Source of the DNA: Bacteroidota bacterium
GTDB taxonomy: Bacteria > Bacteroidota > Bacteroidia > Bacteroidales > FEN-979
Direction of reading: 5' to 3'
DNA: 64,000 nt
NCBI GenBank assembly: GCA_026391735.1
Contig: JAPLDL010000019.1
Span: 62,001 to 126,000 of the forward strand
The stretch's first letter is position 1. The number at the start of each line of letters is the position of its first letter. Both the position numbers and the translations under genes were made by a program. This document shows positions 1,613 through 12,569 of this stretch, one piece after another. The notes under the pieces are model-generated. The model ran no database searches and was not told the DNA's origin. It worked only from the letters and a program-made list of their open reading frames with translations.

Positions 1613-3604
1613 ATGGACTTCAAACAGCAAATACTTCAAGGGATCCCGGCTGAATTACCGGAACCCTTGCCTTATGATCCAAGTGTTAACCATGCCCCTG
1701 TAAGGAAAGACATATTAAACGCGGAGGAGAAGAAACTGGCCGTCAGGAATGCATTGCGATATTTCCCGGCTCATTTTCACAAGATACTTGCCAGGGAATT
1801 TGCCGATGAGTTGCAGAAATATGGCCGCATCTATATGTACCGCTTCCGGCCGGCATATGCCATGCATGCCCGCAATATAAGCGAATATCCCTGTACCTGC
1901 CAGCAAGCTGCAGCAGTGATGCTGATGATCCAGAACAACCTTGACCCTGCTGTTGCTCAACATCCCCACGAACTCATCACTTATGGCGGAAATGGTTCGG
2001 TTTTTCAGAACTGGGCGCAGTACCTGCTTACCATGAAATACCTGGCTTCCATGACATCCGGACAAACCCTGGCCATATACTCAGGTCATCCTATGGGACT
2101 TTTCCCTTCCCATAAAGATGCCCCAAGGGTAGTTGTTACCAATGGTATGATGGTTCCAAATTATAGCAAACCCGATGACTGGGAGAGGTTTAATGCTTTG
2201 GGAGTAACGCAATACGGACAAATGACTGCCGGTTCATATATGTACATCGGCCCCCAGGGGATAGTACACGGTACAACAATCACTGTCCTGAATGCAGCCC
2301 GCCGGCAGGCTTCCGGAGATATCAGGGGAAAGATCTTTGTTACATCAGGACTTGGAGGGATGAGCGGTGCCCAGGCCAAAGCTTCGGTTATTGCCGGGGC
2401 TATCGGCGTTGTGGCTGAGATCAATCCCCGGGCCGTTCAAAAACGCCATTCCCAGGGATGGGTCGACGAAGTGTATACCGACCTGGATCAGCTGATCCAA
2501 AGAATGCTGGAAGCAAGGCAGCGTAAAGAAGCTGTCTCCATGGCATACCAGGGTAATATCGTTGACCTCTGGGAGAAGCTGGTTGAGAAAAAGGTCCGTA
2601 TTGAAATGGGTTCCGACCAAACTTCCCTGCATAACCCCTGGGCAGGTGGCTATTACCCGGCAGGACTTACTATGGAAGAATCCAATGTGCTTATGGTCAA
2701 AGATCCTCCCATGTTCAGGGAAGAAGTTCAGAAATCCCTCCGCCGACAGGTTGCAGCGATAAACAGTATGACAGTGAACGGGATGTATTTCTGGGATTAT
2801 GGCAACGCCTTCCTTCTGGAAGCCGGCAGGGCAGGGGCCGACGTGATGAAAGCCGACGGCACATTCATTTACCCTTCATATGTCCAGGATATCATGGGCC
2901 CCTTGTTTTTCGATTACGGGTTCGGACCTTTCCGATGGGTTTGCACTTCAGGAAACCCGGCCGACCTTGAGATCACCGACAGAATTGCCGGTGATGTCAT
3001 GGAAAAGATCGAAGGCACTTCTCCAGAAGAAATTCGATTGCAGATGAAGGATAATATTCACTGGATCCGTGAAGCCGGGAAAAACAGGATGGTCGTGGGT
3101 TCCCAGGCCAGGATATTGTATGCCGATTGCGAAGGGCGAACTAAAATAGCAGCTGCATTCAATGAAGCCATCAGGCTTGGAAAAATATCAGCACCTGTTG
3201 TTCTTGGAAGAGACCATCATGATGTTTCGGGTACCGACTCCCCGTACCGTGAAACTTCCAATATCTATGACGGTTCTGCGTTTACTGCGGATATGGCGGT
3301 ACAGAATGTGATAGGCGACAGTTTCAGGGGAGCAACCTGGGTTTCGCTGCATAATGGCGGAGGAGTGGGCTGGGGAGAGGTCATCAACGGGGGGTTTGGC
3401 ATGTTGCTTGATGGTTCCGACGATGCTGACCGCCGTCTGCGCTCCATGCTTTACTGGGACGTGAATAACGGAATCTCGAGAAGGGCGTGGGCCCGCAATG
3501 ATGAAGCCGTTTTTGCCATTAAACGGGCGATGGATGAAAATCCCGAATTACAGGTTACTCTGCCCAACAAAGTCCAGGATTCATTGCTCATCAACCTGTT
3601 CTGA
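1613..3604 (+). CDS. hutU: Urocanate hydratase (urocanase), long form
   Basis: The enzyme converts urocanate to imidazolone propionate, the second step of histidine degradation, in the cytoplasm using tightly bound NAD+. Blocks typical of the family are visible: YGGNGSVFQNWAQYLLTMKY (about residues 123-142), TSGQTLAIYSGHPMGLFP, TNGMMVPNYS, the NAD-binding SGLGGMSGAQAKA, and C-terminal HNGGGVGWGEVINGG. At 663 residues it is the longer variety, like animal and many Bacteroidota urocanases, rather than the roughly 555-residue proteobacterial form. It starts 28 bp after the sigma factor gene. No hutH, hutI or hutG/ftcD lies in the window, so the rest of the pathway must be elsewhere. Confidence 0.96.
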   Translation: MDFKQQILQGIPAELPEPLPYDPSVNHAPVRKDILNAEEKKLAVRNALRYFPAHFHKILAREFADELQKYGRIYMYRFRPAYAMHARNISEYPCTCQQAAAVMLMIQNNLDPAVAQHPHELITYGGNGSVFQNWAQYLLTMKYLASMTSGQTLAIYSGHPMGLFPSHKDAPRVVVTNGMMVPNYSKPDDWERFNALGVTQYGQMTAGSYMYIGPQGIVHGTTITVLNAARRQASGDIRGKIFVTSGLGGMSGAQAKASVIAGAIGVVAEINPRAVQKRHSQGWVDEVYTDLDQLIQRMLEARQRKEAVSMAYQGNIVDLWEKLVEKKVRIEMGSDQTSLHNPWAGGYYPAGLTMEESNVLMVKDPPMFREEVQKSLRRQVAAINSMTVNGMYFWDYGNAFLLEAGRAGADVMKADGTFIYPSYVQDIMGPLFFDYGFGPFRWVCTSGNPADLEITDRIAGDVMEKIEGTSPEEIRLQMKDNIHWIREAGKNRMVVGSQARILYADCEGRTKIAAAFNEAIRLGKISAPVVLGRDHHDVSGTDSPYRETSNIYDGSAFTADMAVQNVIGDSFRGATWVSLHNGGGVGWGEVINGGFGMLLDGSDDADRRLRSMLYWDVNNGISRRAWARNDEAVFAIKRAMDENPELQVTLPNKVQDSLLINLF

Positions 3605-3632
3605 AACAAAGGATTGTTGCCGCCGCATCCGA

Positions 3633-4931
3633 TCATTTTTTCTTTCGCATCAGCCTGGCGATCTCTGCAATTTCCTTTGGGATTCCCTTTGACAGCACTT
3701 CGTGGCCATCGGCAGTCACAAGAATATCATCTTCAATACGGACTCCGAAACCCCTTCCTGCAGCAGGCTGAACAGTGTCGTTGACCGGGATATAAATACC
3801 GGGTTCCACTGTAATGATCATACCCTGGCGAAGGGTGTCACCGGCTGCCACGTCATGAACGATGAGCCCTACAGGATGCGTTACCCCGTGAAGCATATAC
3901 TTGAGGTACCCGGCTTTCCGTGTCAGCTGTGTAGTCATTTTATCCAGGTCGCTCAGGGTTATTCCTGGCCTTATCCTATCGATCACAGATTTCTGAATAT
4001 TGAGAACAGCCTGGTAAATAACCGTCTGTTCCGGAGTGAACTTGCCGGAAACAGGAATTGTCCGGGTGATATCTGCGCAGAATTCCCCGTACCTGGCTCC
4101 AACATCCATCACTACCAGGTCTCCTTTGCTCATACGGCAAACATTTTTATCGTAATGAGGGATCAGGCTGTTCGTCCCCGAACCAATGATTGAAGCAAAC
4201 GCCATGCTTTGGGATCCCTGGCGCTTTGCTTCATACTCAATGATGGCCTGGAGTTCATATTCAAACATACCGGGTTTGCATTGTTTCATCGCAGCGATGA
4301 TCCCATTGCCGGTCATGGAAATAGCTTTTGTAGTAAGTTCAATCTCCCGCTCTGTTTTGATCTGCCTCAGGGCTGTGAATAATTTATTCGCGGGTTTAAG
4401 CTTTACTCCGGGATGAGCCAGCTCGAAAGTTTTTTTAGTCTCGCGCTCAGAGATGACGGTTTTATCGTTAAGCCAGTCGTTGGATAGTTTGGGTAAAGGA
4501 AAATAATACAGTGTTTTGATCCCCCTGGCAATTTCGGCCAATAAAGGCTCAAAGAGTTTTTCGTTGAGAAGCGTATCGGTGGCCGACAGTATAAGCGGCT
4601 CTGGGATCTGTTCGGTGTAGGTGAAGATCAAAACATGCTTAATTCCTGATCCAAAGCTATAACCTTTCGGGGTGAAGATCACCTTGTATCCTGATTCATC
4701 AATACCCGTAAGATTGAAGAAATCCGGGCTTTGGCGGTAAGGGTCTATATCGACATCATAATCAGCATCGGCCGCTTTCATAACGAGAGCTGAAGTGGAA
4801 TCCATCAGGCTCAGCAAACGGGTTCGGCGGGCAAGGATATCGGCCTTACTGCTGCCCGGTCTTTCACAATCCTGACCATAAACAAACAATGTCATCAGCC
4901 AGAAAACAAGAAAAAAACCTCCGAAACGCAT
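3633..4931 (-). CDS. Exported Xaa-Pro aminopeptidase-like protein (peptidase family M24B)
   Basis: The protein removes N-terminal residues preceding proline. It has an N-terminal signal peptide (about residues 1-19, ending VYGQ), an N-terminal aminopeptidase P domain, and a C-terminal pita-bread catalytic domain. All five metal ligands can be seen: the two Asp in MDVGARYGEFCADIT, the His in GVTHPVG, and the Glu in ITVEPGIYIP and GVRIEDD. It is the last gene of a three-gene minus-strand cluster. Its ATG directly abuts the TAA of the gene before it, with no bases between, so coupled translation is likely. With the M28 peptidase upstream it suggests peptide breakdown in the periplasm. Confidence 0.92.
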   Translation of the reverse strand: MRFGGFFLVFWLMTLFVYGQDCERPGSSKADILARRTRLLSLMDSTSALVMKAADADYDVDIDPYRQSPDFFNLTGIDESGYKVIFTPKGYSFGSGIKHVLIFTYTEQIPEPLILSATDTLLNEKLFEPLLAEIARGIKTLYYFPLPKLSNDWLNDKTVISERETKKTFELAHPGVKLKPANKLFTALRQIKTEREIELTTKAISMTGNGIIAAMKQCKPGMFEYELQAIIEYEAKRQGSQSMAFASIIGSGTNSLIPHYDKNVCRMSKGDLVVMDVGARYGEFCADITRTIPVSGKFTPEQTVIYQAVLNIQKSVIDRIRPGITLSDLDKMTTQLTRKAGYLKYMLHGVTHPVGLIVHDVAAGDTLRQGMIITVEPGIYIPVNDTVQPAAGRGFGVRIEDDILVTADGHEVLSKGIPKEIAEIARLMRKKK

Positions 4932-5771
4932 TTATTCTTTGAGACTTTGGGTAGTGGTCATTTTTTGTGTCATCGGGATCGTCATCTGGGTTTGCCCCGT
5001 GATTGCCATGGTCAGATCCATGGTATTCATGTCAAGTTCATCGATCATCAGCCCCAGAGCCGGATCAAACCAAACAGTGCCCGACATATCCCCGCTGCCT
5101 TCCATCGCCAGGTCCATGCCCATTTGCTTCATTTTACCTGTAATTTCCATCGAGCCTTTATATTCTATCTTAACACAGTCGTGAGTCCCTTTTTTCTCCT
5201 TTCCCGTCAAAACATACTCAATATTTTTTTTATACACGATCTGGCCTTCTCCCATGTCGTTGGTATCGGTGGAAACCCTGGACCATTTTTCACCTATCCC
5301 TACTTCATGATCGGGAAGTTTTGTGAAATTCACAGTAGCAAGGGTCCCCATGGAAATTGAAGATTTTCCTGCTTTTGCAGTGTCTTTGGAGGGTTCTTTG
5401 GTAAGCTTTCCGAGGTTTGTCAGCTTGGCCCACACAGGTTTGTTTGCTTTATCCTTCATGTCCATGGTTGTGTCCCTTCCCATTCCTTTCATATGAAAGT
5501 TCACTTCGTCATAGGAATAGACCAGACTCATCGTACCATCTGCCGAAACGCTTTCAATGTCATATTTTAGCATTGAATGTGCGCTGGTATTCATTTTCAT
5601 CTCCTGTCCGCCCATCTCCTGGGTGGTCTCAATGTTATTATCCTGGGAATACCTGTATGTTTTTCCTTTCTCCATTTTGTAACTGAGATTGAATTTCTCC
5701 TGGGCTCTTACCTGAACATTAACCATCACAAGAACAACGGTGACGATCATCATAATTACTTTGGTTTTCAT
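4932..5771 (-). CDS. Exported protein of unknown function (DUF6263-like)
   Basis: The 279-residue product from the ATG at 5771 has a clear signal peptide (MKTKVIMMIVTVVLVMVNVQ, cleaved after VRAQ). The mature part is a lysine- and methionine-rich beta-strand protein containing KGKTYRYSQDNNIETTQEMG and repeated short Met-Gly-Met blocks. It resembles the DUF6263-type periplasmic proteins of Bacteroidota, but I assign this only tentatively. No catalytic motif is visible. The frame is open further upstream, but the ATG at 5771 places the signal peptide correctly. It sits 40 bp after the M28 peptidase and abuts the aminopeptidase gene, so it is probably cotranscribed with both. Confidence 0.75.
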   Translation of the reverse strand: MKTKVIMMIVTVVLVMVNVQVRAQEKFNLSYKMEKGKTYRYSQDNNIETTQEMGGQEMKMNTSAHSMLKYDIESVSADGTMSLVYSYDEVNFHMKGMGRDTTMDMKDKANKPVWAKLTNLGKLTKEPSKDTAKAGKSSISMGTLATVNFTKLPDHEVGIGEKWSRVSTDTNDMGEGQIVYKKNIEYVLTGKEKKGTHDCVKIEYKGSMEITGKMKQMGMDLAMEGSGDMSGTVWFDPALGLMIDELDMNTMDLTMAITGQTQMTIPMTQKMTTTQSLKE

Positions 5772-5811
5772 TTTTTTCAGATTTATGGGATAAAATGTTT
5801 TCTGATTAATT

Positions 5812-7410
5812 TCATTGACCAACGGGAGCATCGCCTTCGACCGGGTTGATGCTATATCGTATATTTTCATTGGAAATTTTTCCGGCAGTATAAAATACCA
5901 GCCTGGATACCCTTGCAGCTTTATTGCAGTCCGATTTGTCGGGATTATCGCTCACCTGGTGGTAATCCTTATGCAGCCCGGTAAAGTAAAATATAAAGGG
6001 GACATTGTGTTTGTAGAAGTAATAGTGGTCGCTGCCGCCCAGAAAATCGCTGTTTTTAACTACCAGTTTGAATTTGGTCTTTTTGTTTTCATTTTTAATG
6101 ATTTCAGTGATGTCGGGACTTTGCTTTGCCCCTTCCAGGTAAAGTGAATCGGGGGAATTCCTGCTTATCATATCAAGGTTCAGCATTGCTACGGTTGAAG
6201 CCAGTGGATGAAGCGGATGAGTTGTGTAATACCGGGATCCGAATAACCCCTTTTCTTCACCGGCAAACAGGATGAACATCATACTGCGTTTCGGTTTTTT
6301 CTTAAGTTGGCTGAAAGCATAAGCGACAGACATTACGCCTGAAGTTCCTGAAGCATTGTCGTCGGCGCCATTGAAAATATAATCTTCATCTGCTTTATGC
6401 TCTTTTTTATATCCAACATGGTCATAATGGGCACCGATTATAACAAGCTGTTTATTTAACACCGGGTCGCTCCCTTCGATAAATCCTACCACATTCTTCG
6501 CATTGAGCACTGTTGTGCGGATGTTCGCATGCATGCTTACCTTGATACCTGGTAATTCGAAGGAAACACAGGAAAGATCTTTTTCAATTCTGGCTTGAAG
6601 ATTTTTAAGGGAATCTATGCTGCCGAAAAGCATCCTTACCATTTCCTCACCGATATGCATAGCCGGGATCAGATCCTCGTTATCCATGCACAAATGCAGG
6701 GGAACGGCATCTTTTGGGATCACTTTGGACAGGGAAGGCCATGGGTAACCGCGGGCTTTGACCGAACTATACTGCAAAGGCCCGTTAACAATGAGCATTC
6801 CGGTTGCTCCATGCGTTATCGCATTTTTCATTTTGTCTTTAAGGGAGATGTATTTTGAATCTTCCTTGCCATTAAATACTGAATTGGAATCATCTTTCTG
6901 GGGTTCATTCCTGAAAATGACCACTATCCTGCCTTTAGCATCAATCCCTTTATAATCATCATAATTGAACTCTGGTGCTGTAATTCCATAACCGGCAAAG
7001 ACTACGGGAGCTGTCACTGAAGCTGCTGAAGAGAAATCATAGGGAACATAATCTGATTTTATTGTCAGTTCAAAACTTGCCCCGTTTTTCACGACAGCCA
7101 GTTCATTGCTGTCGCCAAGCTGATCAACGCATATGGGGACTTCCTGGAAGTAACTTCCATTCCAGGGTTTAATGCCCCAGTCCCTGAAGTTCCCGGCAAT
7201 ATATGAGGCTGCCGAGTCAAGCTGCGGACTGGGTGTATTTCTCCCTTTCATGGAATCTGAAGCAAGGTATTTAATCTGTTTACAGAGAAAATCGGCAGTG
7301 ATGAGTTTATTCCCGTTACTTCGGTTGTACTGGGTGCCGGAACATCCGCAGATGAAACAGGAAAGTATAACAGCGCAAATAAACAAACCGGGGAGGGAGA
7401 TTTTCTTCAT
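5812..7410 (-). CDS. M28 family zinc aminopeptidase lipoprotein with PA domain
   Basis: This is a probable outer-envelope metallopeptidase. The start at 7410 gives a lipoprotein signal peptide with lipobox-like residues (LSCFICGCSG). A protease-associated (PA) insert lies in the first half. The catalytic domain carries the di-zinc ligands in GAHYDHVG, NGADDNASGT, AGEEKGLFGS, NLDMISRN and the late His in KDYHQVSDNP. These are the marks of co-catalytic M28 aminopeptidases, which strip N-terminal residues from peptides. It is the first gene of the minus-strand cluster with the unknown exported protein and aminopeptidase P. A well-formed promoter lies about 50 bp upstream of this start. Upstream in-frame codons to 7476 lie between that promoter and the signal peptide and are rejected. 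Confidence 0.92.
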   Translation of the reverse strand: MKKISLPGLFICAVILSCFICGCSGTQYNRSNGNKLITADFLCKQIKYLASDSMKGRNTPSPQLDSAASYIAGNFRDWGIKPWNGSYFQEVPICVDQLGDSNELAVVKNGASFELTIKSDYVPYDFSSAASVTAPVVFAGYGITAPEFNYDDYKGIDAKGRIVVIFRNEPQKDDSNSVFNGKEDSKYISLKDKMKNAITHGATGMLIVNGPLQYSSVKARGYPWPSLSKVIPKDAVPLHLCMDNEDLIPAMHIGEEMVRMLFGSIDSLKNLQARIEKDLSCVSFELPGIKVSMHANIRTTVLNAKNVVGFIEGSDPVLNKQLVIIGAHYDHVGYKKEHKADEDYIFNGADDNASGTSGVMSVAYAFSQLKKKPKRSMMFILFAGEEKGLFGSRYYTTHPLHPLASTVAMLNLDMISRNSPDSLYLEGAKQSPDITEIIKNENKKTKFKLVVKNSDFLGGSDHYYFYKHNVPFIFYFTGLHKDYHQVSDNPDKSDCNKAARVSRLVFYTAGKISNENIRYSINPVEGDAPVGQ

Positions 7411-7462
7411 CGGGAAAATGTTTTGAAACAATAATCGGAGATAATTCAAAAGTTTGAAGTTA

Positions 7463-7494
7463 CAAACGTACTGCAAATAAGTAAATTGGACAAA
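7463..7494 (-). promoter_or_regulatory. Bacteroidota-type promoter of the M28/unknown/aminopeptidase cluster
   Basis: Read on the minus strand, TTTG (7491-7494) is followed after exactly 20 bases by TACGTTTG (7463-7470). This is a full match to the known -33 TTTG and -7 TAnnTTTG consensus. Transcription would begin near 7456, leaving a leader of about 45 bases before the ATG at 7410. Confidence 0.75.
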
Positions 7495-7571
7495 TTTCTT
7501 ACGAAAATCAACTGCATAGTTGATTTTACCCTGAAATTATCCTAACTTTACTGCCATAAAAAAAACGTATC

Positions 7572-9683
7572 ATGAAACGCTTTTCCCTATTCGTGCTTAC
7601 CTGTATGATCATACTATGTTATTCATGCAAACACGAAATCAAAGTGAAATATCCGGTAGCCAGGAAAGTAGATTCTGCTGATAATTATTTTGGGACAAGA
7701 GTCCCTGATCCTTATCGCTGGCTTGAAAACGATACTTCAACTGAAACAGCTGAATGGGTTAAAGCCGAAAACGTAGTAACCTCAGGATACCTGGCACAGA
7801 TACCTTTCAGGGAAAAGATCCGCGAGAAGCTTACCAAAATGTGGAATTATCCCCGGTATGGAGTACCGTTCAGGCAGGGTCCGTATTATTTCTATTTTAA
7901 GAACGATGGCCTGCAAAATCAGTCGGTTATGTATTACAAAACCGGTATTGACGGAGAACCCCGGGTATTGTTAGACCCCAACAAACTCTCAGCTGATGGT
8001 ACAATTGCTTTGGCAGGTACTTCGGTTTCCCATGACGGCAAATACATTGCGTACAGTCTTGCCGGCAGCGGATCGGATTGGAATGAAATACAGGTTTTAG
8101 AAATTGCCAGCGGGAAGAAGTTGATGGATACGCTTAAATGGGTGAAATTCTCGGGAATGTCGTGGCAGGGCAACGGATTTTATTATAGTCGTTATGATGA
8201 ACCCAGGAAGGGGATGGAACTGTCGAAAAAGAATGAAAACCATAAAGTGTTTTATCACAAAGTCGGAACTTCTCAGAAGGATGACAGGCTTATATATCAG
8301 AACCCTAAATATCCCCTGAGAAATTACGGGGCTTCGACCACCGAAGATGAGAAATTCCTGATCCTGTACGAATCCGAATCAACCAGTGGAACAGCAATGT
8401 ATTACAGGGATCTGACTAAAAAAGAAGCTCCCTTTAAACTCCTGGCCGAAGGATTTGAATATGAATATGGAGTCGTGGATAATATTGAAAATAAGCTCCT
8501 TGTAGTTACGAATTATAAATCGCCCAAGAAAAAGCTGATCCTGATGGATCCGGAAAAACCTTCGCCTGATAACTGGAAAACGATTATCCCTGAGCGGGAG
8601 GATGTTCTGGAGTCGGTTGACCTTTGCGGTCAGGTGTTGTTGTCGACATACATGCAGAATGCAGTTTCCAAAGCTTATATCTATAACATGGAAGGAAAAT
8701 TCCTTCATGAGATGAGCTTGCCGGGCCTTGGCACTCTTGCCGGATTTAACAGTAAAAAGGGAGATAGTATCGCTTTCTTTGGTTATACATCATTTACATT
8801 TCCTCTGACGGTATATAAATTTAATGTCACAAAGAATACTTCCGAGGTGTATACGCGGCCTGAAACAGGGATCAACCCCGATGATTTTGAAGTAAAGCAG
8901 GTGTCGTTCCTCAGTAAGGACAAGACCCCTGTGCGAATGTTCATCGTTCATAGGAAGGATATAGTATTGAATGGGAAAAACCCGACCCTGCTATATGGTT
9001 ACGGTGGGTTCAATGTAAGTTTGACCCCAAGTTTCAGTATAAGCCGCCTGTTATTCATGCAAAGCGGGGGCGTTTATGCTGTGCCCAATATCCGCGGGGG
9101 AGGAGAATACGGTGAGGAGTGGCATAAGGCTGGTATAAAAGAAAAGAAGCAAAACGTATTTGATGACTTCATTGCTGCTGCAGAATATCTTTTTAAGGAA
9201 AAATATACAAGTCCGGAGAAACTGGCTATCATGGGCGGTTCTAACGGAGGACTGCTGATTGGTGCAGTAATGACACAAAGACCTGATCTTATGAAAGTAG
9301 CAATACCGCAGGTCGGAGTGATGGATATGCTGAGATACCACAGGTTTACCATCGGATGGGCGTGGGCCAGCGATTACGGAACCAGCGAGACAAAAGAGGG
9401 TTTCAGCTATCTGTTTAAATATTCCCCACTCCAAAATATTAAAGATGGGGTTAATTACCCGGCAACACTTGCATTTACTGCAGACCACGACGACCGGGTC
9501 GTTCCCGCCCATACATTCAAGTTTATGGCTACATTGCAGGAAAAAAACAGAGGTCAGAACCCAATCCTCGTGAGGATTGACTCAAAAGCCGGGCACGGTG
9601 CCGGAAAGCCTTTGTCAAAGTCTATTGATGAAGCAACAGACCTCTGGTCCTTTGTTTTCTACCAGCTTGAAATGAAGCCCTGA
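7572..9683 (+). CDS. Prolyl oligopeptidase family serine peptidase (S9A), lipoprotein
   Basis: The product cleaves short peptides after proline. It begins with a lipoprotein signal (cysteine in LCYSCKHE), so it is likely anchored in the periplasm or outer membrane. Next comes DPYRWLEND, the N-terminal signature of S9A enzymes, a beta-propeller region (about residues 90-440), and an alpha/beta hydrolase domain. The catalytic triad is visible: Ser557 in GGSNGG, Asp640/641 in ADHDDRVVP and His675 in AGHGAGKP. The length of 703 residues matches the family. It is transcribed divergently from the M28 peptidase cluster. Together these genes supply exo- and endo-peptidases for peptide use. Confidence 0.95.
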   Translation: MKRFSLFVLTCMIILCYSCKHEIKVKYPVARKVDSADNYFGTRVPDPYRWLENDTSTETAEWVKAENVVTSGYLAQIPFREKIREKLTKMWNYPRYGVPFRQGPYYFYFKNDGLQNQSVMYYKTGIDGEPRVLLDPNKLSADGTIALAGTSVSHDGKYIAYSLAGSGSDWNEIQVLEIASGKKLMDTLKWVKFSGMSWQGNGFYYSRYDEPRKGMELSKKNENHKVFYHKVGTSQKDDRLIYQNPKYPLRNYGASTTEDEKFLILYESESTSGTAMYYRDLTKKEAPFKLLAEGFEYEYGVVDNIENKLLVVTNYKSPKKKLILMDPEKPSPDNWKTIIPEREDVLESVDLCGQVLLSTYMQNAVSKAYIYNMEGKFLHEMSLPGLGTLAGFNSKKGDSIAFFGYTSFTFPLTVYKFNVTKNTSEVYTRPETGINPDDFEVKQVSFLSKDKTPVRMFIVHRKDIVLNGKNPTLLYGYGGFNVSLTPSFSISRLLFMQSGGVYAVPNIRGGGEYGEEWHKAGIKEKKQNVFDDFIAAAEYLFKEKYTSPEKLAIMGGSNGGLLIGAVMTQRPDLMKVAIPQVGVMDMLRYHRFTIGWAWASDYGTSETKEGFSYLFKYSPLQNIKDGVNYPATLAFTADHDDRVVPAHTFKFMATLQEKNRGQNPILVRIDSKAGHGAGKPLSKSIDEATDLWSFVFYQLEMKP

Positions 9684-9851
9684 TCATCGGAATTTTTTTT
9701 CTGATTTTTTTTTTCTTCACGCAACTGTTCCTGATTTAGTCCTGTCATTCCTATGACAACAGGCGACCTGGCCTAAGCCTGTGTAAAAAAAATCTTTAAA
9801 AACATATCACTTTTTCATTTTCCCCGGATTAAGAGGGGTAGCTCATAAGTT
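9684..9851. other. Intergenic leader before the ECF/CHAT module
   Basis: This 168-bp gap starts with two long T-runs just after the S9 peptidase gene, possibly an imperfect terminator. It then holds a short inverted repeat (GTCAT/ATGAC, 9744-9755) and CAGGC/GCCTG around 9759-9780. I see no TAnnTTTG box, which would fit a promoter read by an alternative sigma factor, but this is only suggestive. Confidence 0.35.
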
Positions 9852-10433
9852 ATGATACTACTGTATACAAACGAAAAGCTGGTTAGGGGCTTTATGGAAG
9901 GCAGGGAACCCTGCGTTAAATATATCTACCGGGAATATTTCCCAATGGTAAGATCAATTGTAAGTGCCAGGAACGGGAACCTCGAAGATGCTGAGGATAT
10001 TTTCCATGACGGCTTGATCATTGTACATAATCGGCTGAAAAACAATAAGTTTACACTGAACAGTACTTTGAAGACTTACCTGTACTCGGTTTGCAAGAAC
10101 CTTTGGAAAAGACGGCTTGAAAGGAAATACAGGCTGCTGTATGCCGCAGATACATACATCAGTGAAACAGACATCTGTGACACCGAAGAAAGCCAGGAAG
10201 AAGAAAGTTCAGAAAAGTTTCGATTGTATAAAAAGAACTTCGCCCAGATGCCGGAATTCTGCAGGGAACTTCTAACCCATTATATTTTAAAAACACCACT
10301 GGAAGAGATTGCTAGAATAATGAACTATAAGGACGCTGAATATGTCAAGGCGCGTAAATATTATTGTAAAAACCTGCTCCGGAAAAAAATTCTCAATGAC
10401 CCGGAGTGCAAGCAATTTATGAACTATGAATGA
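9852..10433 (+). CDS. ECF-type RNA polymerase sigma factor of the CHAT module
   Basis: This 193-residue protein has sigma region 2 at about residues 20-95 (YIYREYFPMVRSIV, NLEDAEDIFHDGLIIVHNRL, TYLYSVCKNLWKRRL). An acidic linker follows (EESQEEESSEK), then a weak region 4 (about residues 130-180) ending in a basic helix. The region 2 block is the part that binds core polymerase and the -10 element. Its stop overlaps the start of the next gene by 8 bp, and a CHAT-domain gene follows 5 bp beyond that, so the three are one translationally coupled unit. It differs strongly from the sigma factor at 976, which argues for a separate regulon. Confidence 0.87.
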   Translation: MILLYTNEKLVRGFMEGREPCVKYIYREYFPMVRSIVSARNGNLEDAEDIFHDGLIIVHNRLKNNKFTLNSTLKTYLYSVCKNLWKRRLERKYRLLYAADTYISETDICDTEESQEEESSEKFRLYKKNFAQMPEFCRELLTHYILKTPLEEIARIMNYKDAEYVKARKYYCKNLLRKKILNDPECKQFMNYE

Positions 10434-11202
10434 TTTTTTATCTTACAGCCACTGGATAGGAAAATTTACCGATAAGGAACTGACTGCCGAGGAGGAAAAC
10501 AGTCTTATTTTTCAGGCTTCGTATAACCCGTTGCTCCGGAACGAACTCAGGCTTGATAATGATCTGAACGAGTTGTTTTCCGATCCTGAAGTGTTCCTGT
10601 TATCGGAAACTATCCGGAAAACCATAATACATGAAAGAAACAAAGTTAGGACACCGGTATACCTGAAGATCGCAGCTTCAGTAATTATTCTGATAACCCT
10701 GGCCGGTCTTGCAGGGTTCGTCATTAATTATTCAAATCACGGGTACAGGCATGCCTTACTTGCTCACGAGGCAATTCTTAAATCGAAGGACTTTTTCGGT
10801 TTAATCCCGGGCAGCGATAATCGTGTAGGGGCTTTAACACCAGTGCAACGAAGGGCTATTATTCAATACGGTCAAAAACCTGACTCCTATACACCAAGGC
10901 CGGAATTCGAATTTCTGGTTGGAACTGTGACAAGGGATGTTTCAGTATTCGTAATCTCGCCAATGCCACGCGTTAAAAGCAGGGTCGACAGTACCATTTA
11001 TTTCAGCTGGAGATGGCTGGCCGGACCCATGCCATTGAACCTTGAAATTACTGATAATCTAGGACATGTCGTTTTGAATTATATGCAGCTCACAGACCTT
11101 GGTTACGCGCTTAATACCAAACACTGGGCCAGGGGTTTGTATTATTATAAAATTACTACCGGAGATGAAATTATTACTATTGGAAGTATTTCAATATATT
11201 AA
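10426..11202 (+). CDS. Single-pass membrane protein, candidate anti-sigma factor
   Basis: I do not recognise a family. The 258-residue protein has a cytoplasmic N-terminal part of about 75 residues with acidic and polar helices, one membrane span at about residues 80-101 (KIAASVIILITLAGLAGFVI), and a periplasmic part of about 155 residues that looks beta-rich. That topology is the usual one of anti-sigma factors, and its gene overlaps the sigma-factor gene by 8 bp. The zinc-binding HxxxCxxC motif of ZAS anti-sigmas is absent. The C-terminal part (IYFSWRWLAGPMPLNLEI and later) may be an immunoglobulin-like or sensor domain. The anti-sigma role is inferred from topology and position only. Confidence 0.7.
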   Translation: MNDFLSYSHWIGKFTDKELTAEEENSLIFQASYNPLLRNELRLDNDLNELFSDPEVFLLSETIRKTIIHERNKVRTPVYLKIAASVIILITLAGLAGFVINYSNHGYRHALLAHEAILKSKDFFGLIPGSDNRVGALTPVQRRAIIQYGQKPDSYTPRPEFEFLVGTVTRDVSVFVISPMPRVKSRVDSTIYFSWRWLAGPMPLNLEITDNLGHVVLNYMQLTDLGYALNTKHWARGLYYYKITTGDEIITIGSISIY

Positions 11203-11207
11203 ATCCT

Positions 11208-12569
11208 ATGGACCCCAGAATCGCTGTTTATATAATGTTTTTTCTCCTGGTGATACCCCGGTTTTTCACAATTGCCATGGCCCAGGTTCAGGAAATAGAA
11301 GGTTTATTGTCGGAGATAGGTTCACCCCATAGAAATATCAACCTGGGCTTTTCACCTTTACACCTCGCTGGTAGTGATTTGGCAATAAATGAGAAGTGCC
11401 GGAAACCCGATATACCCGATTCCTCATTCAAAGACCCTTTCTTTACATCAAACGGCATCCCTGTTTATAACCCTTCCATGCTCATTATGATCCAGGGCCT
11501 GCTTTCAAGGCAGGAAGTAATCCTGGAGTATTTCCCTTCTGACACGATGATTTTTACAATTGCAATAACCAGAGAGTTCACAAGTATCTTCACATTGAAA
11601 ATAAACTCTGCGTTCTGGAAGGACATAACAGTATTTAAAAGAAAAATACGGCTGGCCGATACCAGAAACTGTAAAAATCAATCAGAAGCGCTCAGTGAGA
11701 TATTGCTTGGAACGGTTTCATCTTCGCTGAAGGGCAAGACAAAAGCAATCATCATCCCTCATACGGCCCTGTATGGATTCCCTTTCGAGGCACTTGTTTA
11801 CCCTGTATCCCGGATGGGACAAACCGTAAACAATTCAAAATATCTCATCGAGGGGAAAGAAATAGTGTATAATAATTCTATTGCCCAATGGCTGAGTTCA
11901 AGGATCCGTGGTAAAATATGTAATATGAGTACGGCTGAAAACAATCTTGTTTTTGCAGGTTTTTCTTCCGATTTTGAATTTCATGAATGTATTCAGGAGC
12001 TCCGGGAAACTGATCATGAGATCAGCACCATAGGACGTATGTTCAGTGAAAAGGGTAAGACTCCTGTTGTTTTATTTAACGAGAATTCAAATGAATACAA
12101 TTTCAAAGCCATTGCCGGTTTCTGCCAGATCATCCATATTGCCACTCATACCATAATCAATGAGGACTTCCCGGAAATGAACGGTCTGTTGTTCCATGAA
12201 TACGGATCAGATCAGATCACCGATCAGGATGATGGATTGCTTGCAATACATGAAATATGCGAATTGCAGATTCCGGCCGACCTGATTGTGTTGAATGCGT
12301 GCGCATCGGCAAATATCAGAAGTCCCATAGGCCTTGACTGGTATTCCTGTGCAGATTGTTTTATGAAAGCGGGGGCGAGAAATGTTTTATGCACTCTTTG
12401 GAATGTGTCAGATCGTCTGGCTGACCGCTTTATGGTGGATTTTTACCGTTACTATCTTGCAGGAATGTCATACAGTAAGGCATTGCAGCAGGTAAAAATA
12501 GAAATGATCTCCGAGCCTTCCACTTCATTGCCTGTGAACTGGGCAGCCTATGTTTTAATGGGGCAGTGA
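11208..12569 (+). CDS. Exported CHAT-domain (caspase-like peptidase) protein
   Basis: CHAT domains belong to the caspase-like clan of cysteine peptidases. The predicted dyad is present: His314 in HIATHT and Cys365 in VLNACAS. Other family blocks are IIIPHTALYGFPFEALV (about residues 181-197), TLWNVSD and the terminal WAAYVLMGQ. An N-terminal hydrophobic segment ending AMAQ (about residues 6-25) looks like a cleavable signal peptide, so the protein is probably periplasmic or surface-exposed. The region of about residues 30-150 resembles the leader often seen before CHAT domains, but the usual TPR repeats are missing. It follows the candidate anti-sigma by 5 bp. A plausible but unproven role is cleavage of a signalling partner. 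Confidence 0.88.
   Translation: MDPRIAVYIMFFLLVIPRFFTIAMAQVQEIEGLLSEIGSPHRNINLGFSPLHLAGSDLAINEKCRKPDIPDSSFKDPFFTSNGIPVYNPSMLIMIQGLLSRQEVILEYFPSDTMIFTIAITREFTSIFTLKINSAFWKDITVFKRKIRLADTRNCKNQSEALSEILLGTVSSSLKGKTKAIIIPHTALYGFPFEALVYPVSRMGQTVNNSKYLIEGKEIVYNNSIAQWLSSRIRGKICNMSTAENNLVFAGFSSDFEFHECIQELRETDHEISTIGRMFSEKGKTPVVLFNENSNEYNFKAIAGFCQIIHIATHTIINEDFPEMNGLLFHEYGSDQITDQDDGLLAIHEICELQIPADLIVLNACASANIRSPIGLDWYSCADCFMKAGARNVLCTLWNVSDRLADRFMVDFYRYYLAGMSYSKALQQVKIEMISEPSTSLPVNWAAYVLMGQ

Follow-up and report, generated by a model that had tools for sequence, protein, structure and literature searches.

What does a probably exported, caspase-like peptidase do beside a sigma factor and a membrane protein encoded in the same operon? 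The question is raised by three adjacent genes in a 64,000-nucleotide stretch of DNA (the window; contig JAPLDL010000019.1, positions 62,001 to 126,000) from a Bacteroidota genome of lineage FEN-979 (assembly GCA_026391735.1; 2.81 Mb in 25 contigs, 80% complete). The genes, which like all features below lie on the forward strand, encode protein 1, an extracytoplasmic function (ECF) sigma factor (9852-10433, 193 aa), protein 2, a single-pass membrane protein and probable anti-sigma factor (10426-11202, 258 aa), and protein 3, a probably exported CHAT caspase-like peptidase (11208-12569, 453 aa). An original prediction, made from the letters of the window, read them as one coupled module in which the CHAT protein could either cut the membrane protein or be an output of the sigma factor. 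The analysis upheld that prediction in part. Our best reading is that the module is a split relative of the DdvS/DdvA design, with the CHAT protein most likely acting as a component of the anti-sigma apparatus on the outer side of the membrane. Three features went beyond the original prediction and shape this answer: an ECF-type promoter, a domain on protein 2 that resembles those of type 9 secretion, and the DdvA precedent.

Conservation of the three-gene order

Coordinates of the open reading frames (ORFs) confirmed the predicted layout of three co-directional genes, the first two sharing 8 bp and the second and third lying 5 bp apart. Protein 1 scored above the cut-offs of Sigma70_r2 (PF04542; 39.1 bits, cut-off 24) and of TIGR02937, sigma70-ECF (63.5 bits, cut-off 42.9, residues 23-179), in agreement with its earlier assignment as an ECF sigma factor. 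Sigma regions 2 and 4 are both present in this short protein, region 4 without a Pfam match of its own. Identity with CASP-sigma of the type III-E (Craspase) system was ruled out by a score of 18.0 bits against NF041236, which has a cut-off of 100.

Within the family we sampled 43 genomes (G000-G042). Protein 2 was matched at E ≤ 0.001 in 40 of them, and in 36 of the 40 stretches fetched, hence in 36 of 43 genomes, the sigma factor, protein 2 and CHAT genes followed in the same order and direction (in two of the 36, L067 and L068, the CHAT ORF runs to the contig end). Such a conserved gene order indicates that the arrangement is not due to chance, and it bears out the view of the module as a conserved unit. 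Four loci departed from the standard order: L077 (G014) is rearranged, L101 (G041) stops at the end of its contig and has its CHAT match on a different one, and L091 (G031) and L102 (G042) keep protein 2 directly abutting a convergent RidA gene. Among the three genomes with no protein 2 match, G023 holds a CHAT fragment only (L122), G029 shows a sigma match that is partial and lies at the edge of a contig, and none of the three proteins was matched in G024.

The CHAT domain of protein 3 and its kinship with DdvA

Protein 3 matched CHAT (PF12770) at E 1.6e-49 over residues 159-453. Alignment of CHAT rows points to His314 (codon 12147-12149) and Cys365 (codon 12300-12302) as the catalytic dyad. 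Across 54 aligned rows His was found in 52 and Cys in 53, the remainder being rows that lack those columns (L068 ends before both, and L122 has no His column). TPR repeats gave no match in protein 3 up to E 1, so that the CHAT domain, the dyad and the lack of TPR repeats all stood as originally described.

DdvA is, according to the titles of PDB entries 8rot and 8rw5, a transmembrane anti-sigma factor of Myxococcus xanthus. When structural matches to the model of protein 3 (mean predicted local distance difference test score, pLDDT, 66) were re-aligned, DdvA came first (8rot; Z 20.2, 2.6 Å, 190 residues), followed by SAVED-CHAT (Z 18.1), Csx29 (16.4), separase (15.6) and gingipain RgpB (14.6). 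Foldseek, ranking by E-value, had placed Csx29 chains first and DdvA 17th, and the re-alignment moved DdvA to the top. Searches of PDB sequences with CHAT profiles pointed to the same protein. Profile A6 had a single match at E ≤ 0.001, which was DdvA (3.3e-10) with both His and Cys aligned; profile A2 found DdvA at 7.5e-6 and separase at about 1e-3, and Csx29 was not among its matches at E ≤ 1. With the TPR-dominated profile A5, DdvA (5.9e-13) ranks far below TPR proteins. Protein 3 therefore carries a DdvA-like CHAT domain, and since the nearest solved CHAT is that of DdvA, the CHAT protein is most likely part of the anti-sigma apparatus. A DdvA-type anti-sigma factor in one chain was not found here, because the anti-sigma domain and span are on one ORF and CHAT on another.

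The family CHAT proteins vary in length. Module CHATs of genera g2, g4 and g5 are 824-951 aa long, and TPR repeats were present in all four of the ten that were scanned (L071, L073, L074, L078). In a tree of 42 CHAT domains, the 25 short ones fell on one side of a single branch in 91% of 200 bootstrap trees (support 94/80). Because the short CHATs lie behind one branch and the outgroup rows are all TPR proteins, the TPR-less form is probably a derived state that arose by one loss of the TPR part.

Protein 3 is probably exported, as judged from its N-terminus. Residues 1-25 (11208-11282) form a probable signal peptide, with a hydropathy segment at 5-23 and a signal-peptidase-like site, AMA-Q, recognized by eye. 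Of 37 family CHAT proteins, 26 have a hydrophobic segment in their first 40 residues that passes a simple threshold of hydropathy, and 11 have weaker ones by eye. Outside the family, all 17 CHAT ORFs counted near ECF genes related to that of protein 1 (see below) carry a hydrophobic segment at the C-terminus (L104, L108, L109, L114, L117, L118, L239, L246, L249, L250 with two, L252, L259, L263, L264, L266 and L267), against 2 of 9 unlinked complete CHATs (present in L105 and L113; absent from L106, L107, L110, L111, L112, L115 and L116, with L103 cut), a comparison that was noticed late rather than planned and whose unlinked set is not random. The L235 CHAT fragment, 8 kb from its ECF gene and with no C-terminal segment, was set aside. 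Together the N-terminal segments in the family and the C-terminal ones elsewhere support the earlier placement of CHAT outside the inner membrane.

Protein 2 as the probable anti-sigma factor

Hydropathy identified a single hydrophobic segment in protein 2 (residues 74-92), with basic residues N-terminal to it by eye, and an AlphaFold2 model built with 8 sequences (mean pLDDT 72) placed a helix at 78-111. Both confirm the proposed single-span topology, with the membrane span at about residues 78-100 (10657-10725). Residues 1-75 (10426-10650) constitute a predicted cytoplasmic anti-sigma domain. The original prediction had pointed to this region as the place for anti-sigma helices, and four were predicted there at moderate confidence (7-15, 21-33, 35-52 and 54-74; pLDDT 48-79 in this block). 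An excerpt of a survey of such proteins describes the class I anti-sigma domain (ASDI) as three helices plus a fourth (PMC7406223).

Profile comparison linked this domain to known anti-sigma domains in two steps. The N-termini of 34 protein 2 members matched those of six TPR-type proteins from other families at 98.7%, and the TPR-type N-termini in turn matched those of FecR (90.6%) and the zinc-finger anti-sigma domains (82.5%). Controls, whether reversed or unrelated, reached at most 2.5%, and FecR and the zinc-finger domains matched each other at 20.4%. Four of the six TPR-type proteins are beside or fused to a related ECF gene, and two (L117 and L118) lie beyond the CHAT gene. The known anti-sigma sets were picked by eye and held 10 of the 19 FecR ORFs and 11 of the 17 ORFs at zinc-finger loci; the rows dropped were mostly truncated or other ORFs, and the intact-looking L138 and L158 were also left out.

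Two loci add to this link. In L077, the ORF at 7206-7955 shares its periplasmic domain with protein 2 (E 2.7e-5) and bears an Hx3Cx2C motif of the zinc type at its N-terminus; its own Pfam scan gave no match. A sigma-70-like gene lies upstream on the same strand (PF04542 17.1 bits, under the cut-off of 24), the two genes falling within 7206-8769, and a TPR-CHAT gene (3809-7219) is convergent. In L121, a single ORF (3146-4492), which may be an assembly error, joins an ECF sigma factor, a protein-2-like domain, a span and TPR repeats. Based on the helices, the transitive profile link, the L077 motif and the L121 ORF, we conclude that protein 1 very probably has protein 2 as its anti-sigma factor, as the original prediction supposed, and we are highly confident that the two form a sigma/anti-sigma pair.

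Curated Pfam and NCBIfam anti-sigma models had no match in protein 2 of the window, and across the 34 members NF047528 matched three, NF010501 three and NF052375 two, every E-value being above 0.008. Membership of the FecR family was ruled out, as PF04773 gave no match up to E 1. The protein 2 profile had 10 matches among PDB sequences, at E 0.022 or worse and covering the span and variable linker; phmmer searches with protein 2 or protein 3 singly returned no matches. The fold search with protein 2 returned the beta-sandwich alone and barely probed the N-terminal helices.

Separately, two genes are divergent from the L121 ORF, one with a type 9 sorting domain and one with TPR repeats that is truncated at the end of the contig. 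The former, between the TPR gene and the ECF gene, is a carboxypeptidase-regulatory-like gene (L121:1613-2851) in which a scan found the terminal type 9 sorting domain. In L108, a gene that appears carboxypeptidase-regulatory-like by eye (9894-11129) is located between the TPR-CHAT gene and the ECF gene.

The periplasmic part of protein 2

Beyond the span, the model of protein 2 shows a low-confidence linker (residues 107-138) and a beta-sandwich (174-257). After the variable linker, the 34-member alignment revealed a conserved periplasmic stretch, YxPxPEYExLVGxVTR (aa 155-170; 10888-10935), in which E162, G166 and R170 are nearly invariant. We regard this stretch as a candidate cleavage region.

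Residues 171-258 (10936-11199) form the beta-sandwich, which resembles the sorting domain of type 9 secretion. The match to TIGR04183 is marginal and partial (24.2 bits, cut-off 23; positions 21-66 of 72), and that to the Pfam counterpart PF18962 is under the cut-off (18.1 bits, cut-off 27). TIGR04183 was matched at E ≤ 0.1 by 17 of the 34 protein 2 members; in the source genome it had 90 matches at E ≤ 0.001, protein 2 being one. Fold matches were DUF3244 (Z 9.3) and the type 9 sorting domain of NucA (Z 8.7), values in the usual range for immunoglobulin-like folds. Protein 2 is not a type A cargo of type 9 secretion by its N-terminus, where a soluble helical domain is predicted ahead of an internal span, in place of a cleavable export signal. 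The ratio of identity in the periplasmic part to that in the anti-sigma domain averaged 0.78 where CHAT is lost and 0.88 elsewhere, which is at most a hint of faster change of the periplasmic part after CHAT loss and carries no significance test.

A candidate autoregulatory promoter

The original prediction noted that no TAnnTTTG box precedes the module, and none was found in 9551-9852. It also proposed that the sigma factor reads its own promoter, and suggested a search for an upstream motif shared by related modules. We identified a candidate ECF promoter at 9721-9749, consisting of GCAAC (9721-9725), 18 nt and GTCATT (GTC 9744-9746). The pattern CAAC/GAAC-18-GTC occurs in 27 of 39 family upstream regions, while any other spacing from 8 to 30 occurs in at most 5 of 39, and 500 base shuffles gave a mean of 0.7 matches and a maximum of 4; these counts are inflated by shared ancestry. 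CAAC, 18 nt and GTC were found in 7 of 8 upstream regions in the genus of the window, and the counts by genus were g1 7/8, g3 15/19, g5 4/4, g6 1/1, g2 0/2, g4 0/4 and g7 0/1. A fixed spacing across genera with different flanks is the trace expected from an ECF promoter, and it supports the earlier idea that protein 1 may regulate its own operon, here through the CAAC-18-GTC box. Naming a regulon from the pattern was abandoned, because with up to 2 mismatches it had 137 matches in the source genome and 290 in the reversed control.

Other features were seen in the same upstream region. A second conserved block near the start codon of protein 1 (9780-9851) reads GTTATTAACAA..TCACCTTTT..CGGATTAA in many modules of other genera, and in the genus of the window the second half only is present. 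In L088, a g5 member, the block reads TTATCCACA, which we take to resemble a DnaA box. Just 3' of the ECF-type box, the leader at 9742-9800 contains ACAGGN..CTGGCC..NCCTGT, a possible hairpin in which some of the 8 species of the genus have apparently compensating changes and others have breaks.

CHAT linkage outside the family

To place the module more broadly, one genome from each of 57 other families of the order was sampled for ECF genes like that of protein 1 (P1-like; E ≤ 1e-17). Ten of the 21 genes found, in 8 families, have a CHAT ORF within about 2 kb (G047:C130, G064:C100, G056:C48, G085:C60, G084:C140, G084:C124, G062:C148, G089:C121, G049:C25 and G049:C5), compared with about 0.2 of 21 expected by chance, a figure from rough arithmetic on CHAT counts and genome sizes. 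Eight of the linked CHATs are convergent with the sigma gene, one is divergent and one runs in the same direction. A further convergent case, L114 (G080), has a P1-like ORF (L114:3887-4660, 9.6e-27) outside the 21; the P1-like search missed it and is thus incomplete.

A phylum sample of 198 genomes added 29 P1-like ECF genes, and all 29 neighbourhoods were examined. Anti-sigma-like neighbours were present in 16 (E ≤ 0.05; that in L240 is a short ORF with no called span), and a CHAT ORF in six, of which one is the L235 fragment and the other five are divergent and no more than 2 kb away. The original prediction looked to relatives for the same three-gene order: it is kept within the family, as described above, but elsewhere in the order and phylum CHAT mostly differs in orientation or was not found. 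That linkage survives a change of orientation points to more than co-transcription. As judged from these neighbourhoods, a sigma factor with a membrane anti-sigma factor is the commoner unit, and CHAT is a recurrent but not universal partner.

Genomic context

Upstream of the module, a gene that looks prolyl-oligopeptidase-like by eye (7572-9683) ends 168 bp before the gene for protein 1. Downstream are RidA-like and LptD-like genes on the opposite strand and an amidase gene, all assigned by eye. A defence library had zero matches at E ≤ 0.01 to the three module proteins, the rest of the window not being searched for defence genes. A genome collection yielded 8 named matches, seven of them metagenome-assembled genomes under the labels uncultured Bacteroidales or Bacteroidetes bacterium (isolate names place two of these in Lac Pavin), and the eighth a distant CHAT in Rudaea. 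The source genome has a second CHAT gene (L002:1063-2388; G000:C18), also short and with a signal-like N-terminus. In the 14-kb stretch L119 around it, phmmer (E ≤ 0.001) found no relative of the three proteins, the second CHAT itself included.

Comparison with known systems

The DdvS/DdvA system and the module each combine an ECF sigma factor, a membrane anti-sigma factor and a CHAT domain, as compared by sequence, fold and PDB titles. They differ in that CHAT lies within the chain of DdvA itself, whereas here it is a separate ORF and the anti-sigma factor bears a beta-sandwich instead. DdvS controls an antiphage (CBASS/CRISPR) island in Myxococcus, according to an extract of PMC12288465, and the signal that inactivates DdvA was still unknown in 2015 according to an extract of PMC4374960.

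An analogous partnership is found in type III-E CRISPR systems, where an extract of PMC10028731 presents a proposed model in which Csx29 cuts Csx30 and so relieves the inhibition of CASP-sigma. Both sets unite an ECF sigma factor, an inhibitor and a CHAT peptidase (Csx29 being a TPR-CHAT protein). However, Csx29 works with the RNA-guided Cas7-11, whereas the CHAT protein here has a signal-like N-terminus and the inhibitor spans the membrane. This paper was the only one found in a literature search for CHAT domains together with anti-sigma factors or with ECF or Bacteroidetes sigma factors, a search that covered few subscription papers; for periplasmic CHAT proteins and sigma factors, a Leptospira transcriptome study was the one item listed.

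Like RseA of the RseA/DegS/RseP system, protein 2 would be a membrane anti-sigma factor that binds sigma through a cytoplasmic domain, which here is a predicted one, and the source genome encodes one RseP-like M50 peptidase. DegS is a serine protease of the PDZ type, whereas the proposed site-1 enzyme here would be a caspase-fold cysteine peptidase. PorU of type 9 secretion clips secreted cargo. In PorU/type 9 secretion, as in the module, a caspase-fold peptidase adjoins a type-9-sorting-like domain, and the CHAT fold is near that of gingipain RgpB. Protein 2 differs in being a membrane protein with a cytoplasmic domain rather than secreted cargo.

A model for the module and its alternatives

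The gene order, the domains, the dyad, the promoter conservation and the kinship of CHAT with DdvA are read directly from sequence and are the starting points of the model that we propose. The four-helix N-terminal domain of protein 2 would hold protein 1 at the inner membrane. Protein 2 would cross the membrane once and present its variable linker, conserved stretch and beta-sandwich to the periplasm, where the exported CHAT protein may work with it as a split counterpart of the CHAT domain of DdvA. Upon an envelope signal CHAT would bind or cut protein 2, and further proteolysis, for which the RseP-like M50 peptidase is a candidate, would free the sigma factor to raise expression of its own operon from the CAAC-18-GTC promoter. 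As a whole we hold this envelope-signalling switch tentatively, at slightly less than even confidence. That CHAT acts on the anti-sigma factor at all appears to us evenly balanced, and actual cutting of protein 2 is less probable than such action.

Several observations weigh against this proposal. Genomes G031 (99% complete) and G042 (81%) keep the sigma factor and protein 2 with no CHAT match genome-wide, which indicates that sigma and anti-sigma can persist when CHAT is missing, and R170 is retained where CHAT is lost. The promoter is absent from one of these two CHAT-less loci (L091) and present in the other (L102). G014 has an extra pair on another contig, made up of a sigma gene that contains one in-frame TGA and an ORF like protein 2, with no CHAT in the 12.8 kb read. 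In the stretches examined, no CHAT match was found for 11 of the 21 P1-like ECF genes in the order and 23 of the 29 in the phylum, some on short contigs (among the 11, the contigs of L253, L260 and L262 are shorter than 6 kb, and a TPR ORF in L121 is truncated where its contig ends). No match to the promoter was seen in 12 of 39 modules, including all 6 of g2 and g4. None of 36 family CHAT proteins has the C-terminal hydrophobic segment, and they may thus be soluble. Directly compared, the N-terminus of protein 2 is a weak profile match to FecR (16.8%), and a match to zinc-finger domains is absent (0.9%). Finally, the models of proteins 2 and 3 are of moderate confidence only.

The alternative that survives best is that CHAT is an output: the sigma factor and protein 2 would be a complete sensor, and the exported peptidase, merely co-expressed, would target other envelope or surface proteins. 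The CHAT-less G031 and G042, the many sigma/anti-sigma pairs with no CHAT nearby, and the place of CHAT as last gene behind an ECF-type promoter are all consistent with this view. Against it, linkage also holds where the CHAT and sigma genes point toward or away from each other, and the nearest solved CHAT sits in an anti-sigma factor. We consider an output role unlikely, though a serious possibility.

A second alternative keeps CHAT with the anti-sigma factor and removes the cutting. Here CHAT would bind protein 2 on its periplasmic side as a sensor or co-inhibitor, in a split version of the DdvA arrangement where the dyad has another purpose. The location of CHAT within the anti-sigma chain of DdvA, known from the 8rot and 8rw5 titles and the sequence match, speaks for such a role. 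However, the dyad is retained wherever its columns are present, and DdvA too keeps the aligned His and Cys, so that we judge a non-cutting CHAT to be rather improbable.

A more specific form of cutting is suggested by analogy with PorU. CHAT would recognize the beta-sandwich of protein 2 and clip the conserved stretch near R170, so that protein 2, as a tethered mock cargo, would report the state of type 9 secretion or envelope traffic and its clipping would release the sigma factor. We give this variant little credence; if true, it would provide a caspase-fold site-1 protease for regulated proteolysis in Bacteroidota. Last, that the three genes are neighbours with no shared mechanism is very improbable, for although the absence of CHAT is tolerated, the order is kept in 36 of 43 family genomes, 10 of 21 ECF genes in other families are linked to CHAT where about 0.2 are expected, and CHAT and anti-sigma factor form one chain in DdvA.

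Together, the split reading of the DdvS/DdvA design has consequences for sigma factor control in Bacteroidota. Class I anti-sigma domains adjoin only 6% of Bacteroidetes ECF factors, according to the excerpted survey (PMC7406223), and one ECF subgroup would gain a partner in the N-terminal domain of protein 2, which escaped the family models applied here. If CHAT does cut protein 2, sigma factors would be released by a caspase-fold peptidase in a setting other than CRISPR. Between them, the forms in which CHAT is split off, bears TPR repeats, shares one chain with the anti-sigma factor (DdvA) or is missing allow a direct test of what it does.

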